Source: Sphingobacteriia bacterium
Lineage (GTDB): Bacteria > Bacteroidota > Bacteroidia > Chitinophagales > Chitinophagaceae
Assembly (NCBI GenBank): GCA_017304675.1
Contig: JAFKLS010000018.1
Coordinates: 372,001-436,000 of the forward strand
Length of the DNA: 64,000 bases
Direction: 5' to 3'
Each line of letters starts with the position of its first letter. Position 1 is the stretch's first letter. Shown one piece after another: positions 1,602 to 3,500 of this stretch. The notes under the pieces were generated by a model that was given only the letters and a program-made list of their open reading frames with translations, was not told the DNA's origin and ran no database searches. Made by a program: the position numbers and the translations under genes.

Positions 1602-2574
1602 TTCGATTTTAAACAGCATTCAAAATACTAATACAACAAAAGAGCTAGTGAATAAAATAGTGGTTTTAGATTTCTATTTGCAAATCTTACTTGTTTTAAA
1701 GAATATTTATGTTGAAGTTAACAGATATTCAGGATCGGTTGAAATCCCGGACTTTAAATTCTACTCCGAGAACAGAGTAGGTAGTTATGGAAATTTTACT
1801 TTGAATTATGATTCACTGAATCATAAAGATAAAAGAGAGTATTATTATTCTTATGCGTCTAATAATTTTCCTAAAGATTACTTTTCCTTTGGAAGAATGG
1901 CTAAAACAAAAATCGTACTATTAAATAAAAACAACCAACACCCATTATTAAAGTTATCTTATCCATTTAGAGGTAAAACAGAATCTTTGACTGAACTTTC
2001 TTCTTATTATGCCAATGCTGCAAATCATCTTGATTTTCAACATATAGACATTAATAACGCATATAAAGAGTTAGAGAAAATAAATAAATGTGTACTGTTA
2101 ATTGACACTTTGGATGAAAAAACATTTAAAACCCAAATGACTTTTAGCAAAATGTATAATTCTCGTGATTTTTTATACCTGATTGGTGGCGATGCGATAA
2201 AGAAATTACATGCAATGATTTTGACTGCAGATATTGAAGGAGATTCTGCTATCAGTACAAAAAATACAGTTAAGCTTTCTACTGTAATGGATAAGTATCT
2301 CACCGCATATAAATGGTTTGCAGAAAATATTAAATGTGAGCGAGCTAAAGATTTAAATCATTTTCAATATCAGGTTTTGAACGGATTGTTTGATAATTTA
2401 ACTACGGTTTTATTATTGTACATTAATGAAAGTAAAAAAGATGAACAAAGTTTACTAATGCAAAAAAAATATACAGAATCCTGCTTAAACTGTCTCCTTT
2501 CATATATACAATATTCCGCAACCTATTTTACATCAGAAAAAGATTACGATTATTCTTTAGTACAATATTATTAG
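1588..2574 (+). CDS. Hypothetical protein, overlapped with the secreted protein upstream
   Basis: 328 residues, rich in Tyr, Asn and Lys, with no signal peptide, no convincing membrane span and no catalytic motif I recognise. The start ATG lies inside the last codons of the preceding gene (14-bp overlap), so translational coupling is likely and the two products may act together. The second half is mainly helical by composition. The function is unknown, and the partner being secreted while this one appears cytosolic is notable. Confidence 0.65.
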   Translation: MHVIDSILNSIQNTNTTKELVNKIVVLDFYLQILLVLKNIYVEVNRYSGSVEIPDFKFYSENRVGSYGNFTLNYDSLNHKDKREYYYSYASNNFPKDYFSFGRMAKTKIVLLNKNNQHPLLKLSYPFRGKTESLTELSSYYANAANHLDFQHIDINNAYKELEKINKCVLLIDTLDEKTFKTQMTFSKMYNSRDFLYLIGGDAIKKLHAMILTADIEGDSAISTKNTVKLSTVMDKYLTAYKWFAENIKCERAKDLNHFQYQVLNGLFDNLTTVLLLYINESKKDEQSLLMQKKYTESCLNCLLSYIQYSATYFTSEKDYDYSLVQYY

Positions 2575-2684
2575 CAAATAAAGGGATCATTATGCATAAT
2601 TCTGTTATTTATATTTTTTACAATTAACAAACCTGTAAGCCGAAAAGGGTATTATAGAGTAGGTAAATTAAATAAAATAACGTT

Positions 2685-2885
2685 ATGTATCAAGTAAAAA
2701 CATTTACATGTAAAGGTTGCGGCGAAAGTTTTGATAGCTTAGAACAACGAGCAAATCAATGGCTGCATAGCAATAAAACAACTATAGAGAAAATAATATG
2801 TACATCGACTAATATGGCTCCAAGTACTAATCATAACGACGGTATGTTCATGGCAATTATAATAACATACAAGAAATGTGATTAA
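2685..2885 (+). CDS. Small protein with an N-terminal CxxC motif
   Basis: 66 residues starting MYQVKTFTCKGCGESFDSLE. The CKGC pair near the N-terminus could be half of a zinc ribbon, but I see only one more Cys pair candidate further on (C38 and C65), so a complete zinc site is uncertain. It stands alone between the upstream pair and a repeat that starts 2 bp after its stop codon. It may be a real small gene or a decayed fragment; codon use resembles its neighbours. Confidence 0.4.
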   Translation: MYQVKTFTCKGCGESFDSLEQRANQWLHSNKTTIEKIICTSTNMAPSTNHNDGMFMAIIITYKKCD

Positions 2886-2886
2886 T

Positions 2887-2971
2887 CCAAAACTGTTTTA
2901 AATCAAATTCTACATTCTTAAAACTCACCTCTCAACCTTTTATTCATTGTCATATTTTATTTCAATTCATG
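2887..2971. repeat. 85-bp direct repeat, copy 1
   Basis: This segment recurs at 3012-3096, exactly 125 bp downstream, with only a few mismatches (for example AAAACTC against AAAGCTC, and TTCATT against TTAGTT). Copy 1 lacks the palindromes that frame copy 2. It starts immediately after the stop codon of the small CxxC gene. Confidence 0.85.
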
Positions 2972-2993
2972 GAGCGATTCTTTTCCACGCCTT

Positions 2994-3115
2994 GGTTCGT
3001 GTCCGCACGAACCAAAACTGTTTTAAATCAAATTCTACATTCTTAAAGCTCACCTCTCAACCTTTTATTAGTTGTCATATTTTATTTCAATTCATGATTC
3101 GTGCGGACACGAACC
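2994..3115. mobile_element. MITE-like unit with palindromic terminal inverted repeats
   Basis: The left end, GGTTCGTGTCCGCACGAACC (2994-3013), is a perfect 8-bp palindrome with loop TCCG. The right end at 3096-3115 (GATTCGTGCGGACACGAACC) is its reverse complement except for one base. Between them lies the second copy (3012-3096) of the 85-bp repeat. Ends that are both self-palindromic and inverted relative to each other, with no gene inside, fit a non-autonomous miniature element or REP-like unit. No transposase is visible nearby. Confidence 0.6.
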
Positions 3116-3361
3116 ATGACGGGGTGGATGCGCTATCAGCAGAAAAATCTGATTGTACCCGCCATGCAGCTTTTAACAGCGAAAGAAAAGACCATTTTAC
3201 CATTGCTCTGTTCTTCTAAAACGTATACTGAAATCGCTTCCATATCTAATATCAGTATTAAAACAGTTGACCGGCACAGGGATGAAATTTTTAAAAAATT
3301 AAACGTACAATCCAGGCTAAATCTCGCTCTCTTCGCTATTAATAACGGTATCGTTGTGTAA
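3116..3361 (+). pseudogene. Truncated LuxR/FixJ-type response regulator: C-terminal HTH only
   Basis: The frame encodes about 80 residues, nearly all of it one LuxR-type HTH: LLTAKEKTILPLL, then YTEIASISNISIKTVDRHRD and KLNVQSRLNLALFAINNG. Family members of this kind normally carry an N-terminal receiver domain of about 120 residues, which is absent. The open frame extends upstream only into the right palindrome of the MITE-like element, with GTG at 3101; ATG 3116 is the first codon outside the element. Most likely it is a remnant whose 5' part was lost, although a stand-alone HTH protein (compare GerE) is possible. Confidence 0.55.
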
Positions 3362-3468
3362 GCGTTAATTGGCAAACAGTTGATTCAAAAAAACATACTG
3401 CTAATTACAACACAATGCACTTTTAAAGGCTGTAGTAACAATCACCCCCCTGCCCAGGTTAACATATA

Positions 3469-3500
3469 TTACAATTGCACAATAACATAATACAATTGTA
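3469..3500. promoter_or_regulatory. ACAATTG/TACAATTGTA motifs downstream of the HTH gene
   Basis: TTACAATTGC (3469-3478) and the perfect 10-bp palindrome TACAATTGTA (3491-3500) lie next to the stop codon of the HTH gene. Similar words, ACAATTGC (3900-3907), AATTGTACA (3957-3965) and ATTGTATAA (3968-3976), lie on its promoter side. Repetition on both sides suggests binding sites for the regulator itself. This is inference from sequence pattern in an AT-rich background. Confidence 0.3.

Follow-up and report, generated by a model that had tools for sequence, protein, structure and literature searches.

A convergent pair of GCC-tagged hairpins in a Sphingobacteriia bacterium genome is very probably an orphan REP element of a RAYT-associated family

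The element at positions 2989 to 3120 of the window (the whole 64,000-nucleotide stretch of DNA analyzed here) is very probably a nonautonomous, convergent pair of REP hairpins, similar to a BIME or REPIN, from a GCC-tagged family whose cognate enzyme would be a RAYT (TnpA-REP) of the HUH/Y1 type, closest to subclass 2.6. In related genomes, RAYT genes are flanked by hairpins that share this sequence and tag, mostly arranged as a convergent pair; these relatives also have hairpin pairs too short to hold the RAYT gene. Since the element has the anatomy of this family without a transposase, and since no transposase was found in the draft genome, we interpret it as an orphan, nonautonomous REP pair rather than as a MITE of a DDE transposon.

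The first-pass annotation had reported an 85-bp direct repeat, one copy of which is framed by inverted ends that are themselves palindromic. The repeat is present, far beyond chance, as copies at 2887 to 2971 and 3012 to 3096 that are identical at 82/85 positions (96%) and start 125 bp apart. The framing was likewise confirmed for copy 2 alone, by 20-mers at 2994 to 3013 (GGTTCGTG-TCCG-CACGAACC) and 3096 to 3115 (GATTCGTG-CGGA-CACGAACC) that are mutually inverted with one mismatch between them; copy 1 has no such hairpins. The palindrome pattern, with up to 3 mismatches allowed, matched the window twice, relative to a mean of 0.00 in 100 shuffles. When folded as single-stranded DNA, the two palindromes form hairpins of 10 and 11 stem pairs (z scores of -6.8 and -5.6), whose spans we set with the 10-bp stem of the hairpin family. 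The 85-bp match shares 4 nt (CCAA) with the left stem and 3 nt (ATG) with the right stem, and the element as a whole reads GCC, hairpin, 78 bp, inverted hairpin, GAC, with no transposase gene. Its features and immediate neighbors are as follows.

2887 to 2971, plus strand: 85-bp repeat, copy 1 (hairpin-free); starts with CCAA and ends with ATG, the inner stem-end bases of copy 2's hairpins
2972 to 2988, no strand: 17-bp spacer from copy 1 to the left tag
2989 to 2991, plus strand: left tag, an unpaired GCC immediately 5' of the left stem; equals the family consensus
2992 to 3015, plus strand: left hairpin (probable REP), 10-bp stem TTGGTTCGTG/CACGAACCAA, loop TCCG
3012 to 3096, plus strand: copy 2 of the 85-bp repeat; interior between the stems at 3016 to 3093, 78 bp
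3094 to 3117, minus strand: right hairpin (probable REP), inverted relative to the left one; minus-strand stem ATGGTTCGTG/CACGAATCAT with one G.T pair, loop TCCG
3118 to 3120, minus strand: degenerate right tag, GTC on the minus strand instead of the family GCC
3124 to 3366, plus strand: truncated second copy of a response-regulator gene (GerE domain), comprising its last 243 bp; abuts the element and lies outside it

The left hairpin fits the family fully, while the right one departs from it by one G.T pair and by its off-consensus tag, which counts against the REP-pair reading; the GTC tag also occurs in 3 of 155 family hairpins. The window holds two REP-like hairpins that are inverted and close together, the arrangement of a REPIN or BIME, and each hairpin has an unpaired tag on one side of its base (GCC on the left and the degenerate GTC on the right). 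This tag is neither GTAG/GTGG nor CGTC.

The tag and stem were delimited from 230 hairpin matches (overlapping loci included), which were oriented by the loop alone: loops starting with TC or TT were called forward, and those ending with GA or AA were called reverse. Thirty-eight matches that fit both or neither, such as those with the TATA loops of G006, were dropped, and removal of duplicates and of matches at locus ends left 156 oriented contexts. GCC occupies positions -5 to -3, directly 5' of the 10-bp stem, in 129 of these 156 hairpins, relative to 4 with the mirror-image GGC on the opposite side. Two stem pairs that lie outside the search pattern are Watson-Crick far more often than in shuffles (pair -1/+1 in 135/156, shuffle maximum of 84; pair -2/+2 in 108/156, shuffle maximum of 56), which indicates that the two outermost stem pairs covary. 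Loops read TCY or TCYN in 151/155 hairpins, a figure that is partly a product of the orientation rule.

The same hairpins flank RAYT genes in relatives. Five of the 12 stretches fetched around hairpins contain an open reading frame (ORF) of 184 to 224 amino acids (stop to stop) between inverted hairpins ~600 bp apart. These five and two further ORFs all match the NCBIfam model for REP-associated tyrosine transposase (7/7; E values of 2e-13 to 2e-22, each below the curated cutoff of 80 bits), and one of the seven weakly matches Pfam Y1_Tnp. Six aligned proteins from relatives all have the HUH histidines, the tyrosine, and the Y-motif NP. A profile of the RAYT-like proteins found one solved chain, 4er8 "TnpArep" (E value of 2e-4), which we take to be the Escherichia coli protein.

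A profile built from six such RAYT-like proteins, mostly from hairpin-flanked genes (profile A1), matched 262 of 394 genomes of the taxonomic family. Among 30 best-match loci that were fetched (L058 to L087), 21 have convergent hairpins no more than 200 bp from each end of the RAYT gene, hairpins are found on both sides in 23, and at least one side carries a hairpin in 26. Five of the 30 are genes used to build the profile, all of them positive; the convergent pair is found in 16 of the 25 others. The 9 loci without a convergent pair by the rule used count against the REP-pair reading. The 30 loci contain 84 hairpin matches, relative to 0 in 20 letter shuffles of each, a control that preserves composition and not relatedness. 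At the genome level, a RAYT match was found in 67 of 78 hairpin-bearing genomes of the taxonomic family, compared with 195 of 316 genomes without the hairpin (P = 3e-5, counted by hand), albeit in a weak test, since other types of RAYT are picked up by the profile as well and scoring was limited to 8 candidates per genome; the 11 hairpin-bearing genomes without a RAYT match count against the REP-pair reading. The first-pass annotation had offered "MITE or REP unit" for the window element and had proposed looking for a RAYT that shares its ends. Such RAYT genes are found in related genomes, flanked by the same hairpins, so the REP half of that description stands; the MITE half survives loosely, in the sense of a nonautonomous element.

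In G003, a genome of the same genus, a Y1-type gene (G003:C7) is flanked by hairpins with a different stem and the same layout, although layout and tag placement were judged by eye there and some stems are imperfect. Other arrangements were also observed. Loci L055 and L062 (G234:C8) hold a series of hairpins, mostly in one orientation, with two RAYT genes among them, and L050 holds three hairpins in direct orientation (G133:C1:930455, 931410, and 932171; spacings of 955 and 760 bp), each of which coincides with or closely follows the end of an ORF, an arrangement that resembles a cassette array.

Hairpin pairs without a gene likewise occur outside the window. Among 87 neighboring hairpin pairs in the fetched loci, 31 are same-direction, 22 convergent, and 9 divergent, and the excess of same-direction over convergent pairs counts against the REP-pair reading. 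Convergent pairs with 80 to 150 bp between the 20-mers are present at 6 loci besides the window, a number that gives no estimate of frequency because many loci were chosen for holding pairs. In one of these 6 loci (L057, 873 to 1010), a 138-bp hairpin pair contains an 89-bp interior stretch with 97% identity to the 3' end of a RAYT gene located at a distance of 3.3 kb. This match identifies the pair, at the level of sequence, as a deletion derivative of the nearby RAYT gene and shows that hairpin-pair units can arise by internal deletion. In locus L106, the interior is present in two tandem copies with a 122- to 123-bp period, similar to the 125 bp of the window. No relative of the 78-bp interior was detected among the fetched loci, which counts against the REP-pair reading. 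Derivation of the window interior from a RAYT gene was considered and is not supported, since copy 1 matched the loci fetched by then (window copies omitted) no better than shuffles did (10/100 were as good).

The genome that carries the window is a draft of 3.33 Mb in 23 contigs, 99.92% complete. No RAYT was detected in it, either with Y1_Tnp (0 matches) or with profile A1 (0 at 1e-8; 8 of 14 candidates scored), which counts against the REP-pair reading. The many dispersed copies expected of REPs are not found in this genome, which holds the window pair and two likely single hairpins; the latter were picked by eye, the palindrome with up to 3 mismatches giving 6 matches versus 4 for a control pattern. 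One of these single hairpins, at C18:274292, carries a GCC tag (tag and outer pairs judged by eye). The other (C13:212690; L016, 1501 to 1518) has a compensated stem, GGTTTGTG/CACAAACC, a TCCT loop, and a GCT tag, again by eye. The first-pass annotation had held that uniqueness of the unit to this locus would refute its MITE or REP reading. The 85-bp unit was indeed not found beyond its own locus in this genome, whereas the hairpins do occur outside that locus, so the uniqueness test was aimed at the wrong part of the element.

Among 39 genomes (this one included), the palindrome is present at up to 2 mismatches in 7 and absent from 32, and it is dispersed in many copies in G006 (106 copies) and G012 (13 copies). 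Loci L114, L121, L122, and L127 of G006 show a high-copy variant whose loops are TATA (symmetric) or TACA (near-symmetric), and some of these hairpins stand in even runs spaced about 70 to 145 bp apart. The exact 23-mer of the left hairpin was found in one stretch in the named genome collection, from a Chitinophagales metagenome-assembled genome, and was absent from viral contigs. BLAST with the repeat region gave matches in 87 of 394 genomes of the taxonomic family; among the matches listed, most cover the left hairpin, and those within the 85-bp unit are weak. The hairpin plus its tag, at 1 mismatch, was found in 32 of 298 genomes of the order and in 4 of 395 genomes sampled across the phylum (this genome belongs to both sets), so within these samples its occurrence is largely confined to this order.

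By analogy with the biochemistry of TnpA-REP and IS200/IS605 enzymes, a RAYT would bind the tagged hairpin in single-stranded DNA and would cut and rejoin DNA near it. The enzyme could thereby have moved or copied the window pair in trans, or have done so in an ancestor. Since the present draft genome yielded no RAYT, the window element looks like a fossil.

The gene next to the element had been called truncated, and it is: the sequence at 3124 to 3366 is identical at 230/243 bp (95%) to the 3' end of an intact gene for a 209-amino-acid response regulator on contig C14. This fragment starts 6 bp past the right stem and 8 bp past the 20-mer. Near the source gene on C14, neither the hairpin nor the repeat had a match, and there was no sign that the window element disrupted the response-regulator gene. 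We also considered a single date for the two duplications; their differences (3/85 versus 13/243) are compatible with one (P = 0.77), which proves nothing. The gene fragment gives rise to an 86-amino-acid ORF (3101 to 3361) that starts inside the right hairpin, comprises little beyond the GerE domain, and could encode a small DNA-binding protein. Farther upstream, positions 2630 to 2665 match the Rfam DUF805b RNA (35.3 bits against a gathering score of 35.6; E value of 5e-8) ahead of a 66-amino-acid ORF; a similar sequence (87%) lies at C18:371388 to 371441 of this genome, and another is found in G003. A match of the element's minus strand to an Rfam plant microRNA precursor (24 against a gathering score of 107) was taken as chance. 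No match was found when four neighboring ORFs were compared with a defense-gene library.

How copy 1 arose is a separate and weaker claim. We consider it about evenly balanced whether it descends from a tandem array, in which an ancestral tandem pair (hairpin, A, spacer, hairpin, A, inverted hairpin) would have lost hairpins by deletion, leaving copy 1 as the remaining half with CCAA and ATG at its edges. We prefer hairpin loss from a tandem unit because of these CCAA and ATG edges, the tandem interior of L106, and the tandem REP clusters described for Pseudomonas fluorescens (PMC3116915), although just 4 + 3 bases of hairpin remain, which counts against the tandem reading. It is possible, if rather doubtful, that copy 1 is instead the original host sequence and that the hairpin pair formed around its copy, the neighboring DNA having been captured by template switching at a hairpin in RAYT-mediated or replication fork events. 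Copy 1 does lack hairpins and lies beyond the tag-to-tag element, and the interior occurs at one locus in the genome and showed no relation to the fetched RAYT loci, as expected of captured DNA. However, the 4 + 3 stem-matching bases at the edges of copy 1 are expected if hairpins were once present, and L106 shows an interior duplicated in tandem together with its hairpin. Capture of host DNA concerns the origin of the repeat only; under it, the hairpins would still be REPs. In three other genomes of the genus, the repeat region and its neighbors were unmatched beyond short pieces.

It is quite improbable that the palindromes serve as operators (binding sites) or transcription terminators instead of being mobile DNA. 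They are intergenic and form stable hairpins, and a consensus scan flagged the left hairpin, with its weak tail AACTGTTTTA, as the sole terminator-like site in 2500 to 3500 (1 versus 0.5 expected by shuffles). The right hairpin, however, was flagged on neither strand, and an operator needs neither a conserved one-sided tag nor covarying outer pairs. Both roles are also at odds with the tight flanking of RAYT genes and with the presence of 106 copies in G006 and 13 in G012 alongside none in 32 of 39 relatives. The left hairpin may also act as a terminator in passing; such a role leaves the tag, the pairing with RAYT genes, and the copy numbers elsewhere unexplained. Least credible is a MITE of the classical type, derived from a DDE insertion sequence and bearing terminal inverted repeats plus a target site duplication. 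Inverted ends and a short noncoding interior speak for it, whereas each end is self-palindromic, no target site duplication was seen by eye beside 2989 and 3120, and in relatives these ends enclose a gene for a RAYT-like protein.

The window element, an orphan member of a kind already known, is very probably stranded mobile DNA, mostly ordinary and of little weight alone. A clear tag and covarying stem that extend over many genomes would render this Bacteroidetes group testable in vitro with short oligonucleotides. No description of the GCC tag or of the window palindrome was found in the main texts searched in the open-access literature.

Among known systems, REPINs and BIMEs (PMC3116915) share the unit of two inverted REPs and, in tandem clusters, repeated flanks; the window differs in its 78-bp interior and in being one orphan pair with no large population in its genome. 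REPs tagged with GTAG or CGTC, as presented in PMC3733652, are also short hairpins that carry an unpaired tag on one side and frequently form inverted pairs, but the window tag is GCC; the text of that paper describes CGTC REPs as having no dedicated transposase. RAYT systems have mainly been described with GTAG-type tags, and the text of PMC6006769 assigns GT[AG]G to other RAYT subclasses while setting a Bacteroidetes subclass aside as "atypical." TnpA-REP subclass 2.4 has part of the motifs found here and is a possible assignment, but its REPs carry GT[AG]G (PMC6006769). The closest likeness is to subclass 2.6 of Bacteroidetes, with "atypical secondary structures," whose genes have flanking hairpins that lack a GT[AG]G tag and are present in more copies elsewhere in the genome (PMC6006769). 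The motifs given for it recur in part in the six aligned RAYTs of relatives (NH[LIV]H in 6/6, WQ in 4/6, and YIH[QN]NP in 3/6); in one of the relatives' RAYTs (L048), the Y motif is two residues short. Neither a hairpin consensus nor a GCC tag was found for this subclass in the text of PMC6006769, and the window pair differs in having no transposase in its genome. We give even chances to the proposal that GCC-tagged hairpins constitute a third REP tag class beside GTAG and CGTC, one that belongs to Bacteroidota RAYTs. In this proposal, the layout of GCC, a 10-bp stem, and a 3- to 5-nt loop starting with T is kept while the stem varies (from GGTTCGTG in the window to TGTTGGTG in the hairpins at the G003 RAYT), and the GCC tag would therefore be the guide of the enzyme, read by a recognition pocket unlike that of E. 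coli TnpA-REP.
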